NCBI GenBank assembly: GCA_017746715.1
Contig: JAGHZQ010000015.1
Location: forward strand, 1-64,000
Direction: 5' to 3'
From: Cyanobacteria bacterium SBLK
GTDB taxonomy: Bacteria > Cyanobacteriota > Cyanobacteriia > Cyanobacteriales > Spirulinaceae
Length of the DNA stretch: 64,000 bases
How positions within the stretch are numbered: position 1 is the stretch's first letter; the number at the start of each line of letters is the position of its first letter. The position numbers and the translations under genes were made by a program. Of this stretch, positions 19,328-48,988 are shown piece after piece. The notes under the pieces are model-generated. The model ran no database searches and was not told the DNA's origin. It saw only the letters and a program-made list of their open reading frames with translations.

Positions 19328-22300
19328 ATGTCACTACTTGCAAGTTTTATTGGAATTAATCGCTACTCAGATCCCTCTATCCGCGAACTCACAGGAGCTC
19401 GACGGGATGCAGAAGCATTATGGGCATTATTCAGTGACTCAGTGCCAAATCTTCAAGCACGAGCGATCGTGGATGCAGAAGCGACAGTAGAAAATATTCG
19501 TAAAACCTTAGATACTACACTAAGGGCAGCCACTTCAAATGATACTGTTATTATCTCATTTTCAGGACACGGAACACCCAATCATCAAATCGTCGCCCAC
19601 GATACAGATCTCAAGGATTTAGTCAATACAACGATTCCCATGCAGGAATTAGCAACCCTTTTTCAAACCTCTAATGCCAAGAAAATACTATTTATTCTTG
19701 ACTGTTGCTTTAGTGGTGGGGCACCTGCAAAAGTACTGAATAATGTTCCTATAGCTCGTAATGCGCGTATAACAATTGATGTAATAGCAGGAGAAGGACG
19801 CATTTGGCTAACAGCATCAAAAGAAAATGAACCCGCTTATGAGCTTCCGGGTAGCGGACATGGTTTGCTAACAAAAGCATTTATTGATGTACTACAAGCT
19901 GCAACAACCCATGTGAATATCCTAGAGGCAAGTGCAGAAATCATGGCAAAAGTAAGAAACGCAGCCCAAAAAATAGGGAGATCGCAAACCCCGGTATTCT
20001 TGGGGCAGATCACAGGTAAATTGTTAATTCCTCCCCTCAAAGCCGGTCAGAATTTTTTTACCAAGTTCCCAGCAGCCACAGGTCAAAAAATCGGTGCAAA
20101 TATTCAAGAATTAGCACAATTCGGATTACCCGAGGGGATTCTCTCCCAGTGGTCTAGTCAATTCCAATCTCTCAACGATCTTCAACTTCAAGCTGTTAAC
20201 GATCGCCAAATTCTTGAAGGTGCTTCTCTGCTCGTTATTGCTCCCACAGGTTCCGGAAAAACTTTTATTGGGGAGTTGGCAGCGACTAAGGCAATTTGTG
20301 AAGGACGAAAAGCTGTCTTTTTGCTTCCTTATCGAGCATTAACTAATGAAAAGTACGAGCAATTTCTGCAAGTCTATGAAAAAAATTTAGGAATGCGCGT
20401 GATTCGCTGTTGTGGAGATTATGTCGATCAAACTCATCTTTTCGTGCGAGGAAAATATGACTTAGCGGTGTTAACTTATGAGATGTTTCTCAATCTGATG
20501 GTCAATAACCCAGTAATTTTGAACCAACTTGGTTTAGTGGTTTTGGATGAGGCACAATTTATCACAGATCCCAGTCGTGGAATTAACGTTGAATTACTTC
20601 TGACTTACTTGCGAACGGTTAAACAACGAGGATTTAATATTCAGCTTATTGCCCTTTCGGCAGTTGTGGGTGATATTAATTATTTTGATGAGTGGTTGGA
20701 ATGTAAAAAATTAGTGACGAATCAGCGTCCAGTTCCTCTTATCGAAGGCGTTCTCGATCGCACCGGAATCTTTCAATTTCTAGATAGTGAAGGTCGTCAG
20801 AAGCTCGAACAGCTATTACCTCCAAATACAATTCGACAACGAAAAAAAGAACCGAGCAATCAAGATATAATTGTACCGTTAGTTCGATTATTGATACAGA
20901 ATAATGAGAATGCGATCGTTTTTCGCAATACAAGAGGTAAAGCACAAGGTTGTGCAAATTATTTAGCTCGAGATTTAGACTTACCCTATGCACGAGAAGC
21001 GATCGAGGCACTTCCTCAGCAAGATATCTCAACTGCATCAATTGTTCTTCGAGAATGCCTGAGAAGCAGAACGGCTTTTCATAATACAAATTTAACTCGT
21101 GAAGAGAAAGAAGTGGTCGAGCAATTTTTCCGAAATCGAGGAGGACAAGTCCGAGTTTTAGCAGCTACAACAACCCTTGCTGCTGGAGTAAATACACCTG
21201 CTTCTACAGTAATCTTGGCGGAACATAAATTTTTTAATGGACGCGATTTGAGCAATTTTACTGTAGCTGAATATAAGAATATGGCAGGACGAGCAGGACG
21301 CATAGGATATAGCAAGCAAGGTACGGCTATTCTCTTAGCAAATCACTCTCAAGAAAGACAATTTCTATTCGATCGTTACGTGCTGGGACAGTTAGAACCC
21401 ATTCAATCTTCTTTTGACTTGCAGAATCTCGAAACATGGATTGTCAGAATTCTGACACAAGTGCATCAAGTTCCTAGAAATGAGGTTATTGTTCTTTTAT
21501 CAAATACCTTCGGTGGCTATCTTGCTAACCGAAAAAATCCTCTTTGGCAAAATCAGATGGAACAACAGCTTGAAACCCTGATTGAGAAGATGATTTATCT
21601 GGGATTGATCGAGCAAGAAGGTCATAAAATTCAATTGACATTACTCGGTCAGGCTGTCGGAAGTTCTGTGCTATCTTTTAGCTCATCAATGCGTTTAGTC
21701 GATCTAATTCGCAATCTTCAAATTGATGATTTGACTGTAGAAAAATTAATAGCCCTTTTACAGGTTCTTCCCGAGTCAGATAATGGTTATACCCCAATGA
21801 TGAAACGAGGATATATCGAAGAATCTCGTCCTCAAGAAACAGCAAAACGCTATGGGAATGAAATTTTGATTGCGCTACAGCGTTTCGCACGCGATCGGTT
21901 TGACTACTTGGCTCGATGCAAGCGAGCTTCATTAATTTGGGATTGGATTAATGGTGAATCAATTGAGGAGATCGAGCAAAAGTATTCTCCCAATCCTTCT
22001 AAAGGAAAAATCGAGTATGGTGATATTTTAAGGTTTGTAGAGGCGACAAGATTTCATTTGCGATCTGCTCATCAAATTATTAGTTTAATTCGTATTGGTC
22101 AAAGCCCTACCGCAGAAGAAATTGCAATAATGTTAAAGCAACTTGAGGTTGGTATTCCAGCCGATGCCCTCGATCTACTCTCTATCCCTTTACGTTTAAA
22201 TCGTGGTGAATATTTAACGCTGTATAAAACAGGGATCGAAACCATGAATGATTTGTGGCTGTTTTCTGAGATGAGGCTCTCAGAACTTTTAGGAAAAAAA

Positions 22301-22360
22301 CGTGCTGCTCAATTAGAATATTATCGTCCGAAAAGACAAGAATTTCGATCGCAATTTTAA
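19328..22360 (+). CDS. Caspase-like protease fused to Ski2/Hel308-like superfamily 2 helicase
   Basis: One 1010-residue frame. Residues 1-235 form a peptidase C14 (caspase/metacaspase) domain with catalytic His in FSGHGTP (H81) and Cys in DCCFSGG (C127). After a linker, a full SF2 helicase follows: APTGSGKT (305-312), LLPYRALTNEKYEQF (Ia), DEAQ (407-410, motif II), LSAVVGD (III), then in the second RecA domain ATTTLAAGVNTPA and NMAGRAGRIG (VI, 651-660). The C-terminal 300 residues are helical, as the winged-helix and ratchet parts of Hel308/Brr2-type enzymes, ending in a helix-hairpin-helix-like YKTGIETMNDLWLFSEMRLSELLGKKRAAQLEY. No GCGATCGC occurs in the gene. Nucleic-acid-triggered proteolysis in defence or cell death is an inference. 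Confidence 0.9.
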   Translation: MSLLASFIGINRYSDPSIRELTGARRDAEALWALFSDSVPNLQARAIVDAEATVENIRKTLDTTLRAATSNDTVIISFSGHGTPNHQIVAHDTDLKDLVNTTIPMQELATLFQTSNAKKILFILDCCFSGGAPAKVLNNVPIARNARITIDVIAGEGRIWLTASKENEPAYELPGSGHGLLTKAFIDVLQAATTHVNILEASAEIMAKVRNAAQKIGRSQTPVFLGQITGKLLIPPLKAGQNFFTKFPAATGQKIGANIQELAQFGLPEGILSQWSSQFQSLNDLQLQAVNDRQILEGASLLVIAPTGSGKTFIGELAATKAICEGRKAVFLLPYRALTNEKYEQFLQVYEKNLGMRVIRCCGDYVDQTHLFVRGKYDLAVLTYEMFLNLMVNNPVILNQLGLVVLDEAQFITDPSRGINVELLLTYLRTVKQRGFNIQLIALSAVVGDINYFDEWLECKKLVTNQRPVPLIEGVLDRTGIFQFLDSEGRQKLEQLLPPNTIRQRKKEPSNQDIIVPLVRLLIQNNENAIVFRNTRGKAQGCANYLARDLDLPYAREAIEALPQQDISTASIVLRECLRSRTAFHNTNLTREEKEVVEQFFRNRGGQVRVLAATTTLAAGVNTPASTVILAEHKFFNGRDLSNFTVAEYKNMAGRAGRIGYSKQGTAILLANHSQERQFLFDRYVLGQLEPIQSSFDLQNLETWIVRILTQVHQVPRNEVIVLLSNTFGGYLANRKNPLWQNQMEQQLETLIEKMIYLGLIEQEGHKIQLTLLGQAVGSSVLSFSSSMRLVDLIRNLQIDDLTVEKLIALLQVLPESDNGYTPMMKRGYIEESRPQETAKRYGNEILIALQRFARDRFDYLARCKRASLIWDWINGESIEEIEQKYSPNPSKGKIEYGDILRFVEATRFHLRSAHQIISLIRIGQSPTAEEIAIMLKQLEVGIPADALDLLSIPLRLNRGEYLTLYKTGIETMNDLWLFSEMRLSELLGKKRAAQLEYYRPKRQEFRSQF

Positions 22361-43347: not shown

Positions 43348-43466
43348 TTGTATTAAAATTAAAATATCAATTTTATTGCGGCGTTCTTTTGAACCGATCG
43401 AGAGCCAATCTGTAATAATGTCTTCTGGGTGCATGGCAATCGTAAAATTTTTTTTAGAGAGTGACA

Positions 43467-44411
43467 ATGCCTAAAATTTCACCACAACCCAGAAAAGATG
43501 ACCCAGTTTTAGGCGAGATCGCCTCGACTCCTGCCAATGCTTCAATTTTAGGAGGAATTGAAGGTGTTAAAAAACGCTTGGCCGGTTCTGACGAACGGGA
43601 GCGGCTTGCTGCCCTAGAAGATGCTTTAAACTACGATGAAGAAGGCTTACAAATCGTGATTGCGGCTTTGCAAAGCGATTGCATTGCCATTGAGATTAAA
43701 GCCTGGGAACTCTTGCGCGATCGCGAAGAACCCCAAGTCACAAAAGCATTATTTCTTTACGATCCCATCGGTCCCAGTCGCGAAGCCGAGTATCGAACAC
43801 TGAGACAACTGTTGGAAAAAGGAAATTGGCAAGAAGCCGACAAAGAAACAAAATCGATTCTCCTTCGCCTCGCCAAACGTCAAGATAAATGGCTGCGAAA
43901 AGAGGATATTCTCAAGATTCCTGCTTTAGAATTAGTGGCTTGCGATCGCCTCTGGCTGCGATACAGTCGGGGTCGTTTTGGTTTCAGCGTACAAGCTCAA
44001 CTGTTGGAAAATCAAGGATTAGACCTCTCGAACAGCTCGCATTTAGACGAGCGATCGTCGGGGTTTCAACCCTATTCTCAGAAACGTCTATTCGAGAGTT
44101 TTGCCAAAACTGTCGGTTGGTATGTTAAAAATGACGAGCCGAAAGTAATCACGGCGAACGATATCGTCTATCGGAAAAAGCATATCCCTTTCAATCTTTC
44201 CTCACCTCGAGGACATTTACCTCTGACCTTTGAACTGGGGGGAGGAACTTGGACGTATCAACCCATTAATGACGATGACTATTATATGGGATGGGGACCT
44301 GACAGTTATCGATCTTGGGATTGGGGGTCTTGTGTGGGTCCGGAGATCGTCAAAGCATTTCTGGCATATTTTCACCAATGCTCCCAACGGCATAAATCTG
44401 CCAAAAAATAG
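43467..44411 (+). CDS. GUN4-domain protein with N-terminal helical module, paralogue 1
   Basis: 314 residues from ATG 43467; a GTG at 43461 is possible. Residues 1-100 form a helical module with PANASILGGIEGVKKRLAGSDERERLAALEDALNYDEEGLQIVIAALQ. A GUN4 domain follows: YRTLRQLLEKGNWQEADKETKSILL, WLRKEDILKIPALELVACDRLWLRYSRGRFGFSVQAQLL, and GWYV...FNLSSPRGHLPLTFELG. GUN4 binds protoporphyrin IX and Mg-protoporphyrin and stimulates Mg-chelatase; many cyanobacterial GUN4-domain proteins of other architectures exist whose role is not known. The C-terminus FLAYFHQCSQ is shared with the paralogue directly downstream. This is not the housekeeping Gun4. Confidence 0.9.
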   Translation: MPKISPQPRKDDPVLGEIASTPANASILGGIEGVKKRLAGSDERERLAALEDALNYDEEGLQIVIAALQSDCIAIEIKAWELLRDREEPQVTKALFLYDPIGPSREAEYRTLRQLLEKGNWQEADKETKSILLRLAKRQDKWLRKEDILKIPALELVACDRLWLRYSRGRFGFSVQAQLLENQGLDLSNSSHLDERSSGFQPYSQKRLFESFAKTVGWYVKNDEPKVITANDIVYRKKHIPFNLSSPRGHLPLTFELGGGTWTYQPINDDDYYMGWGPDSYRSWDWGSCVGPEIVKAFLAYFHQCSQRHKSAKK

Positions 44412-44487
44412 AGGCAACAGACATCAAAATCCCGACAATTCATCATTGAATCCGATCGCAAAAATACCGCCAATCCAATTTGATATA

Positions 44488-45369
44488 ATGCCCGACAGTT
44501 CTTCACAACCTCAACCCGATGATGCCGTTTTAGGCGATCGCGCGCCGACTCCTGCCAATGCTTCCATCTTAGGAGGAATAGAAGGAGTCAAAAAACGGCT
44601 TGCTAGTTCCGACGAACGAGAAAAAATTTCTGCTTTAGAAGATGCTTTAAATTATCAGAAAGAAGGTTTGAATCTTGTGATTCATGCCTTAAAAGATGAG
44701 TGTTTCACCGTAGAACAGAAAGCATGGAATTTATTACGCGATCGTACAGAAAATGAAGTAAAAAAAGCACTCAAAGAGTATGTTTCATTACAATCGAGCT
44801 GTGGAGTCAATTATCGAAAACTGCGACAATTATTACTCGAGAAAAAATGGAAAGAAGCCGATATAGAAATGCGATCGCTTCTCCTCAATACCGTAAACCG
44901 CCGAGATTTATGGTTGCGACAACAGGATATTCCCAAATTACCCGCCCTTGATTTAGTCACTTGCGATCGCCTCTGGGTTAAACACAGTCAAGGGCATTTT
45001 GGCTTCAGCGTTCAGGCTAAAATTTTGGCAAAAGGGAGTGTTGATATGATGGGTTGGAGAGTAGACAATGAAATGGGAGGTCGCGGGCCTTGGGATAGGG
45101 TAGATCGAATTTATCAAAAAAGGAATATCTCTGTCGATCTGAGCGCCCCCAAAGGATTTTTTCCCCTCGTCTTTGAATTGGGTGGCGGCACATCCGAGTT
45201 TCTTCCCTACACGACAGAAACAGAATCCGTAATGGGATTTTATCCGATTGATGGCTATTATAATAAGTGGTCGAGGGATTCCTTTTTCGGACCGCAAATG
45301 ATACAGCGATTTTTCTCCCATTTTCACCAATGTTCTCAATTGATTAAGAAGAAAAGGACATCAAAATAA
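44488..45369 (+). CDS. GUN4-domain protein, paralogue 2 (tandem duplicate)
   Basis: 293 residues from ATG 44488 (MPDSSSQPQPDD), chosen by alignment with the first copy; an upstream in-frame start at 44230 lies inside the preceding gene. The N-terminal motif TPANASILGGIEGVKKRLAS is identical in all but one or two residues to paralogue 1, and the GUN4 core (WLRQQDIPKLPALDLVTCDRLWVKHSQGHFGFSVQAKIL) is closely similar, while the porphyrin-side loops differ, including loss of the GWYV-like segment. The 76-base spacing shows a recent-to-moderate tandem duplication with divergence. It could bind different tetrapyrroles or form a heterodimer with the first copy. Confidence 0.88.
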   Translation: MPDSSSQPQPDDAVLGDRAPTPANASILGGIEGVKKRLASSDEREKISALEDALNYQKEGLNLVIHALKDECFTVEQKAWNLLRDRTENEVKKALKEYVSLQSSCGVNYRKLRQLLLEKKWKEADIEMRSLLLNTVNRRDLWLRQQDIPKLPALDLVTCDRLWVKHSQGHFGFSVQAKILAKGSVDMMGWRVDNEMGGRGPWDRVDRIYQKRNISVDLSAPKGFFPLVFELGGGTSEFLPYTTETESVMGFYPIDGYYNKWSRDSFFGPQMIQRFFSHFHQCSQLIKKKRTSK

Positions 45370-46681: not shown

Positions 46682-48988
46682 TCAAGCATAAATAAAATAG
46701 AGACTGCCACAACCCATCGTCCAAAGAAGTGGAAAAGAAATTCGACCAAAGATAATGAGTTTTTTCCTCGTAATTCCTCTGGCTTCTAAGATGGGACTAT
46801 ATCCTAAAATAACTAACAACAATTCTAACGCTAACAAAGAATAAATGATGTAGAAAGCATAGTCGAGAGCCACCACATAGCCAATTCCTTCGGGCAGAGA
46901 ATCCAGCAAACTGAGGTGATAAAAAACGATCGCTAACAGCAAACTGCCGATCGCTTCTACGGAAATATCTTCAGGAGGAAGGAAGAGTAAAGAATAGGCA
47001 ACCCCTACAAAAAACCATAAGGGCAATAAATTTTTGATACTAAATCGGAGCAAATCTCGCTTTATTTCAATCTCGGCATTGAATTTAGAATAGTTAAACT
47101 TTGCATTAGATTCAATCAAGCGACGGACTCCCAAAGTCGAACGACTGATATGAGAATTCTGAAAAAAGAGTGCATTGGTCACGCGCCAATTGGTGATTTT
47201 ACCAAAAACATTATCGGTTTTAAATTTTTGTAAAATTTCCTCTACATTTGCGTGGCGCATTCCCACAAAATCTACCACATAAATTAAGCGATCGCGCGTT
47301 AACAAATTATGACGAAAGCGAATGGAGAGAATTTGGCGATCGAAGGGATATTTATGAAAATCAAATTCTTCATAAAAATCGGCTTTAACGCGATAGACAA
47401 CGTAATTCACATCATTCTCGATATCTTGTTGAATTGGTTCATCTAGAGTTAACTTTTCTCCCGAATCTAACCGTTCGACAGAAAAATTGGTGAATTCAAT
47501 ATTATCGGGTTTAAAATCTCCTTGATAGCGAAACCAAAGATAAAAATCAATTAAATAAGATGACGTTCTTTCATCAATTTTTGTTACTTCATTAATATCA
47601 ATTCCCGTATCGACAATGCTGGTTCTTTCTACATAGCTTCCGTCCCCAAGCTGAATAATCTGGTTATTTTTAATTTTCTCTGCCAGTCTGGAAATACTCT
47701 TGAGATTCTCGATGGGGGTAAGTTGAGTAAAAGCAGAAACAAAGTCATTTTGCCGAAAAACACCCATTAAAATTTGCGATACAATCGTTCTTTCTGAATT
47801 AAAATAAAGATTGCGAGTGAGTCCTTCAACCGATGTTCTGAGAGAGTCGATTTTGGTCAGGGAATCTCGCACGCGATCGCGCATTATCGGGATATTTTCT
47901 GATTCTGTATCGGGTTGTGACGCTCCTTCGGTTAAACTATTTTGAATGGCAGCAACGAGAAGGTTTGCCCCATCGTAATAAAAGGTCGAAACCCATCCCG
48001 GAGTATAGCCATATCGTGCCTCGAATTCATTCTTAAATATCTGTCCTCGCTCATCGGAAATATCGAGAATTGCGGGAGCGATCGCATGAATCCCATTGCT
48101 AAAAAATCCCCTCTGGTTTTGCTCTTCTGGTGTATTTAGGAAACTTTCTGCAAAAGAAATATCAGCCATGGCATCACCACCAAAAATGGGAAAATCGATC
48201 CCATTTCTCCTCATTTTTAGAACAATTTTTTCGGCTTCAAAGTTTTGCGCGACTAAAACAATTAAATCGGGTTTTCGCTCGCTCTGTTGTAACTTTAATA
48301 AATCGATTACAATGCGATCGCTCGATCTTTCGAGCTCGTCACTCTCTATCTTTTGCATACCGAGAAAATCTTTTCCAAATGCAGCAAAAGATTCTTTTAG
48401 GTCTCGAGAGAAAGTTTCTCCATAAGTATTATCCCCCGAAATTAAATAAACATTTTTGGCTTGTAAAATATATTGAATATATTCTGCCATAAATTGACTT
48501 TGCGCGCGATTCGTAAAGATAGCACGAAAATACCAAGGATTATCTACCGTTACCGAGTCAGCCGTAGCACTTCCCGTTAGTGCGGGAATCTGACATGTTT
48601 TATAAACTTCTCCGGCTCTGAGAGACAGTCTACCCCCATAATGTCCTAAAATACCCAAAGCCGAAGAATCGCAAATTTCCTTGGCGACTTCCTCAGCGCG
48701 ATCGGGATTAAATTGGTCGTCATAAACGACCAATTTCAGTTTTTTCCCATTAATTCCCCCCGCTTTATTTGCGCGATCGATATAAAATTGAGCCCCATCT
48801 ATCATTTCTCGACCGAGAAAAAGATTGGCTTCTTCTGTATTGCTTTGCGGGGCCGCGATCGCAATGGTAATTGTTTCTCGATTAAAATTCAAATTTGCCC
48901 ACCCTAAAACCAAAATAAAAGTTAAGAGCGATAATAAAAAGAGGATTTCGCCTCGATATTTACTACGTTTACCGATTGGTTTCATCAT
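46682..48988 (-). CDS. Type I periplasmic binding protein fused to a pentameric ligand-gated ion channel (Pro-loop receptor)
   Basis: 768 residues. An N-terminal signal or membrane anchor (about 14-33) is followed by a complete leucine/amide-type binding protein fold (39-420: IAIAAPQSNTEEANLFLGREMIDGAQFYIDRANKAGGING, LISGDNTYGETFSRDLKESF, GWVSTFYYDGANLLVAAI). Next comes a pentameric ligand-gated ion channel unit: beta extracellular domain (about 455-645) with SSYLIDFYLWFRYQGDFKP and the Pro-loop DFHKYPFDRQILSIRF (543-558), then four membrane helices (about 652-670, 675-695, 703-729, 745-767). The module order matches animal-type Cys-loop receptors with the Cys pair missing, as in other prokaryotic members. 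The binding domain probably senses an amino acid or similar ligand in the periplasm and gates the channel. Confidence 0.88.
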   Translation of the reverse strand: MMKPIGKRSKYRGEILFLLSLLTFILVLGWANLNFNRETITIAIAAPQSNTEEANLFLGREMIDGAQFYIDRANKAGGINGKKLKLVVYDDQFNPDRAEEVAKEICDSSALGILGHYGGRLSLRAGEVYKTCQIPALTGSATADSVTVDNPWYFRAIFTNRAQSQFMAEYIQYILQAKNVYLISGDNTYGETFSRDLKESFAAFGKDFLGMQKIESDELERSSDRIVIDLLKLQQSERKPDLIVLVAQNFEAEKIVLKMRRNGIDFPIFGGDAMADISFAESFLNTPEEQNQRGFFSNGIHAIAPAILDISDERGQIFKNEFEARYGYTPGWVSTFYYDGANLLVAAIQNSLTEGASQPDTESENIPIMRDRVRDSLTKIDSLRTSVEGLTRNLYFNSERTIVSQILMGVFRQNDFVSAFTQLTPIENLKSISRLAEKIKNNQIIQLGDGSYVERTSIVDTGIDINEVTKIDERTSSYLIDFYLWFRYQGDFKPDNIEFTNFSVERLDSGEKLTLDEPIQQDIENDVNYVVYRVKADFYEEFDFHKYPFDRQILSIRFRHNLLTRDRLIYVVDFVGMRHANVEEILQKFKTDNVFGKITNWRVTNALFFQNSHISRSTLGVRRLIESNAKFNYSKFNAEIEIKRDLLRFSIKNLLPLWFFVGVAYSLLFLPPEDISVEAIGSLLLAIVFYHLSLLDSLPEGIGYVVALDYAFYIIYSLLALELLLVILGYSPILEARGITRKKLIIFGRISFPLLWTMGCGSLYFIYA

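Follow-up and report, generated by a model that had tools for sequence, protein, structure and literature searches.

The 64,000-nucleotide window of the Cyanobacteria bacterium SBLK genome analyzed here contains a gene that joins a type-I periplasmic binding protein (PBP-I) to a complete pentameric ligand-gated ion channel (pLGIC) in a single chain. The gene lies at 46682-48988 on the minus strand and runs as an open frame from ATG to stop, encoding the protein of 768 amino acids given in an initial annotation of the window; paralogs and the dN/dS ratio support its reality. Pfam, phmmer, profile and hhalign comparisons bear out the order and content proposed in that annotation, a leucine/amide-type binding protein followed by the channel. 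The protein would form, with a probability of about 0.6, an inner-membrane pentamer that is probably cation-selective, with an amino-acid-like ligand in the periplasm gating or tuning it.

Domain composition of the fusion protein

A hydrophobic helix at residues 12-34 (48887-48955, minus strand) gives a Kyte-Doolittle peak of 2.35 at residues 10-36. Judging from the sequences, no convincing cleavage motif is present in this helix in the window protein or its paralogs, and the helix is probably an uncleaved signal anchor with the N-terminus in the cytoplasm. By contrast, a relative (L015) has a clear cleavage site between SRA and EG. Residues 39-424 (47717-48874, minus strand) form a type-I PBP domain of the leucine/amino-acid class, as judged by Pfam and by a PDB profile. 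The comparison of residues 39-420 with Peripla_BP_6 suggested in the initial annotation gives a match over residues 41-355 with E 9e-31, and ANF_receptor matches with E 3.6e-14. The family profile matches 4gnr (E 1.4e-35) and the leucine/isoleucine/valine-binding protein LIVBP (E 1.4e-28) in the PDB, the two-lobe type-I PBP fold thus being matched by both the Pfam and the PDB profiles.

The ligand pocket was compared with Ser-79, Thr-102, Tyr-150 and Glu-226 of LIVBP, which line its amino-acid pocket, the Ser binding the carboxylate; the correspondence is partial. Thr-142 (in an SAT motif) and Tyr-189 of the window protein are kept and are invariant in a nine-sequence core set, and Asp-272 stands where LIVBP has Glu. 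The position of the carboxylate-binding Ser is occupied by Ser in most relatives and by Gly-119 in the window paralog. These alignments suggest that an amino-acid-like ligand is likely for the fusion family and less sure for the window copy, because the carboxylate-binding Ser is replaced there.

The channel half consists of a Cys-loop-type ligand-binding domain (LBD) without cysteines (residues 446-647, 47048-47653, minus strand), recognized by hhalign profile comparison, and a four-helix pLGIC pore domain (residues 649-768, 46685-47044, minus strand), recognized by a profile against the GLIC pore and by hhalign. The Pro-loop already pointed out in the initial annotation, DFHKYPFDRQILSIRF, occupies residues 543-558 (47315-47362, minus strand) and aligns with the Pro-loop of GLIC; its core pattern turned up only 20 times when the C-terminal half was shuffled 20,000 times. 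Trp-485, Asp-573 and Trp-601 of the LBD are invariant. Since the cysteine pair of the Cys-loop, a trait of the animal branch, is absent from the window protein, as it is in prokaryotic members, the protein is, strictly speaking, a Pro-loop receptor rather than a Cys-loop receptor.

The search of channel profiles proposed for this region nearly fails on the window sequence alone and succeeds through its relatives. Pfam finds nothing significant in the isolated channel half (Neur_chan_LBD, E 0.043), and the NCBIfam LIC model gives E 0.11. Single-sequence phmmer against PDB chains detects sTeLIC (E 7.7e-4, residues 630-767), DeCLIC, ELIC and GLIC, with E values from 7.7e-4 to 0.07. A profile built from 12 relatives matches GLIC with E 1.8e-14, the Pro-loop and M1-M4 being matched separately. 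In hhalign comparisons, the LBDs of the fusions match those of stand-alone cyanobacterial pLGICs with a probability of 99.9% (E 3.5e-32), and their pores match stand-alone pLGIC pores with 97.9%, MscS pores as a negative control giving 0.7-1.1%. Paralog L002 matches Neur_chan_LBD with E 1.4e-4, seven of the 12 relatives match the Pfam LBD at E up to 1 (best 1.4e-5), and a Chloroflexota relative matches the NCBIfam models LIC (E 6e-17) and LGIC_1 (E 4e-8). As established by profile searches and close relatives, the channel half is a pLGIC too divergent for Pfam. AlphaFold runs with two-row alignments gave a pLDDT of 40.4 for the full chain and 43.4 for the channel half, values too low for use. 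Pfam and NCBIfam mostly recognize the binding-protein half, so that, as had been anticipated, routine annotation would hide the channel; because the channel half is invisible to Pfam, PBP-pLGIC proteins are probably under-counted. An Azospirillum relative, WP_012976639, is annotated as 'ABC transporter substrate-binding protein', yet it has a C-terminal MscS channel.

Hydropathy analysis detects one N-terminal helix and M1-M3 and leaves M4 below the threshold used, yet GRISFP, a motif of pLGIC M4 helices, is found in M4, and the profile against the GLIC pore upholds the claim of four C-terminal membrane helices. The pore also has the Pro of M1, a hydrophobic residue at 9' of M2 and the LP of the M2-M3 loop. 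M2, placed at residues 674-697 (46898-46969, minus strand) by alignment to M2 of GLIC and within the family, belongs to the most strongly conserved regions in the core clade and has Asp-674 at -2', Glu-678 at 2', Ser-682 at 6' and Leu-685 at 9'. By analogy with GLIC, Asp-674, Glu-678 and Leu-685 suggest that the window pore is probably cation-selective. The window clade has an acidic ring, and some PBP-pLGIC relatives have Arg at 0' of M2 (L022, GARVSFGITGILT; L025, GSRTGFAITSILT; L015, VPRTM). Arg at 0' resembles the anion-channel motif of glycine receptors and of glycine/GABA receptor pores, and the fusion family may, by this analogy, contain both cation- and anion-selective members.

The gene and its relatives

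The SBLK genome encodes four full-length fusion paralogs in all, the three others being 49-50% identical to the window protein and two of them lying in tandem. A genome of the same genus has another full-length copy as well as a split one, the ortholog of the window gene. The dN/dS ratio between the window gene and this split ortholog is about 0.22-0.26 in both halves, and the window gene is under purifying selection in both. Its GC3 of 0.34 lies near the bottom of the range seen in the other long genes of the window that were checked (0.29-0.57). The neighboring genes encode a GerMN-type (Germane) protein, a GNAT acetyltransferase and a uracil phosphoribosyltransferase; no ABC permease or ATPase gene adjoins the window gene, and no gene neighborhood around the fusion gene is conserved among the relatives. 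Elsewhere in the window, two consecutive similar open reading frames on the plus strand (43461-45369) are likely tandem duplicates: their N-terminal stretches closely resemble each other, and the second frame has a GUN4-like domain. The GUN4 gene marks the genome as cyanobacterial, and typical genes of cyanobacteria are likewise carried by relatives sampled from this phylum. A 1010-residue frame on the plus strand (19328-22360) combines a caspase-like Peptidase_C14 domain with a DEAD-box helicase.

Full-length relatives occur in seven of 386 sampled cyanobacterial genomes and in five of 301 sampled Chloroflexota genomes, and thus the distribution of the gene is patchy. A search with the LBD alone detects 27 of 373 cyanobacterial genomes, mostly through ordinary stand-alone pLGICs of 300-400 residues. 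A scan of genome contigs gave the Anaerolineae relative only, and no relatives were found in viral contigs.

The PBP-LBD pair occurs with three different downstream parts. In the first type, to which the window protein belongs, it is followed by the four transmembrane helices of the pLGIC pore. In the second type, a type-II binding protein (SBP_bac_1, E 4e-32) follows M4 of that pore. This type is found as a tandem pair in a cyanobacterium of the same family as the window genome (L014, 178-3741; L018, 208-3762) and in Chloroflexota (L023/L079; L023, 160-4077). The C-terminus after M4 is periplasmic in pLGICs, so the topology of the added binding protein is consistent. A stand-alone SBP_bac_8 gene and the start of a PBP-pLGIC gene overlap on the same strand in genome G172 (L076, 8301-9725 and 5990-8410), indicating that the second binding protein exists unfused too. 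In the third type, the pair is followed by an MscS-type pore, as seen in a cyanobacterium of the window genome's family (L030, 1471-4515; L078, 1937-4975; MS_channel_2nd, E 2e-19), in Azospirillum (L019, 5896-8964; E 4e-18), at locus L028 (2522-5725) and in hits H31-H39. Nine Azospirillum plasmid records align with the cyanobacterial PBP-LBD-MscS protein over 86-94% of its length and have this architecture too. By profile comparison with stand-alone pLGICs, the LBD of the MscS-type proteins is of the Cys-loop type (98.3%). The YPFD Pro-loop is kept in all 17 aligned relatives with four transmembrane helices and is gone from the three aligned MscS-type relatives. The Pro-loop is the contact to the M2-M3 loop of pLGICs, and its loss from proteins with an MscS-type pore fits this role. 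We found no report, in the open-access literature, of a Cys-loop-type LBD or a PBP-LBD pair fused to MscS.

In the SBLK genome, a Tll0287-like/HAMP gene and an MscS-cNMP gene come after the tandem paralogs (L071, G000:C62), and a second gene of the MscS-cNMP type lies at a distance of about 6-7 kb; the two MscS-cNMP genes are among 18 MscS matches in the genome. In genome G360, a divergently oriented MscS gene lies about 1 kb upstream of the fusion gene. Such neighbors may hint at an osmotic link, a suggestive and post hoc reading. Type-I secretion genes (ABC, HlyD and TolC) directly follow the PBP-LBD-MscS gene of Azospirillum B510, which itself faces a gene for a VCBS-domain protein (L019, 5896-13352).

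The family was sampled from two phyla and plasmids. In the PBP tree, the domains of the channel fusions all fall into a single clade that excludes the ordinary binding proteins encoded by the same genomes (support 99/95), and the LBDs of the PBP fusions group together against the 23 stand-alone pLGICs included in the LBD tree (83/88). In these trees, all PBP-fused LBDs found are one lineage. An independent origin of each architecture is disfavored, since both trees favor one fusion. The simplest reading of the trees would be a single PBP-LBD fusion followed by pore exchange. The MscS-type proteins occupy two places in the PBP tree and are joined in the LBD tree (89/92), and because the trees place them differently, the pore would have been swapped to MscS once or twice. 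There is an even chance that the PBP-I and the Cys-loop-type LBD form a portable gating cassette, one ancestral fusion having stayed on a pLGIC pore, gained a second binding protein behind M4, and been transferred to an MscS-type pore with loss of the Pro-loop. If so, a single nerve-receptor-like sensor would serve bacteria for gating two channel folds that are unrelated to each other.

Proposed gating mechanism and rival explanations

The gene product would be one subunit of a pentameric Pro-loop receptor channel in the cyanobacterial inner membrane. On the periplasmic side, each subunit would carry a Cys-loop-type LBD topped by a leucine-binding-protein-type clamshell. The clamshell, as the main sensor, would be closed by a small amino-acid-like solute, and its closure would be relayed through the linker to the Cys-loop-type domain. 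The Pro-loop and the M2-M3 loop would then open or tune a probably cation-selective pore. In this way, an external solute signal would be converted into ion flux, presumably for signaling rather than for nutrient uptake.

It is also conceivable, if rather unlikely, that the channel is real and is not gated by the PBP. Calcium, protons, an amine or a carboxylate would then be the primary stimulus, acting on the Cys-loop-type domain, and the PBP would only modulate, assemble or tether the channel in a DeCLIC-like manner. Most prokaryotic pLGICs, including the 23 stand-alone proteins of the LBD tree, work without a PBP, the N-terminal domain of DeCLIC modulates the gating of a calcium-sensitive channel (PMC9897478, PMC12664993), and Gly-119 replaces the carboxylate-binding Ser in the window paralog. 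Against this stand the invariance of the pocket positions Thr-142 and Tyr-189 and the pairing of PBP and LBD, which persists even where the pore has been exchanged for MscS, suggesting that the pair is the working unit.

An electrically silent receptor or scaffold with a non-conducting pore is improbable. The pore is divergent enough to escape Pfam and has Glu at 2' and Phe at 13', both unusual residues there, but M2 is well conserved in the core clade, with Leu at 9' and acidic rings, and purifying selection acts on both halves. Still less credible is a binding protein of an ABC transporter for which the C-terminal half is a mere anchor: the best single Pfam match is indeed an ABC-type binding protein, but ABC components are absent beside the gene, the PBP clade stands apart from binding proteins encoded in the same genomes, and the C-terminal half amounts to a complete pLGIC core. 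A frame fusion, assembly error or pseudogene is refuted by the presence of the same fusion in four genes of the SBLK genome and in independent assemblies from three phyla, and by the dN/dS of about 0.25.

The fusion places a well-understood ligand clamshell on a nerve-receptor-type channel, which makes two questions testable: which signals prokaryotic pLGICs respond to, and by what means they are gated by an upstream domain. The pore-swapped, Pro-loop-less relatives would provide a natural experiment on which parts of Cys-loop-type receptors couple binding to gating.

Comparison with known systems

The architecture itself is not new, the window gene being a divergent new addition to a little-studied fusion type. 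N-terminal PBP-I fusions to pLGICs were reported in 2005 in Magnetospirillum magnetotacticum and Bradyrhizobium japonicum, with chemosensing as the proposed role, and cyanobacterial representatives were given a simple architecture (Tasneem et al., PMC549065). The statement in the initial annotation that some bacterial Pro-loop receptors carry extra N-terminal domains was vague on earlier work, since this fusion type had already been described (PMC549065). Compared by published description, the PBP-I / ART-LGIC proteins of 2005 share with the window protein an N-terminal PBP-I, a Cys-loop LBD and four transmembrane helices in this order, as well as a proposed sensory role. Unlike them, the window family occurs in Cyanobacteriota and Chloroflexota and has an apparent N-terminal anchor, and the SBLK genome has four paralogs against mostly single copies (PMC549065). 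No functional or structural study of a PBP-I/pLGIC fusion was found in the literature searched.

Other pLGICs with upstream sensor domains differ in the sensor. Cache and MCP-N pLGICs likewise have a sensor domain before the pLGIC, but one of a different fold; in G172, a dCache_1 domain is fused to a pLGIC (L080, 5431-7560), corresponding to the Cache-type architecture described in 2005. The N-terminal domains of prokaryotic pLGICs are described as poorly understood, with DeCLIC named as the sole partly characterized case (PMC12664993, PMC9897478). DeCLIC resembles the window protein as a pLGIC with a large periplasmic N-terminal domain, but this domain is not a PBP (PMC12664993). The LBD, Pro-loop and four-helix pore of GLIC, ELIC and sTeLIC are homologous to those of the window protein, whereas these channels lack a PBP domain and the pore and LBD of the window protein are divergent.

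The parallel with animal receptors drawn in the initial annotation holds for the pore and not for the PBP, which is shared with the amino-terminal domains of ionotropic glutamate receptors (iGluRs) and with mGluRs, not with animal Cys-loop receptors. The pore of iGluRs and of bacterial GluR0 is of the inverted potassium-channel type, not of the pLGIC type, and is a P-loop pore inserted in the PBP-II domain. By its sequence, the window protein has a pLGIC pore and is not an iGluR, the likeness being convergent. Like iGluRs and GluR0, the window protein couples binding-protein domains to a ligand-gated channel, and its tripartite relatives, which combine PBP-I, pore and PBP-II, contain the same two classes of binding protein as iGluRs.
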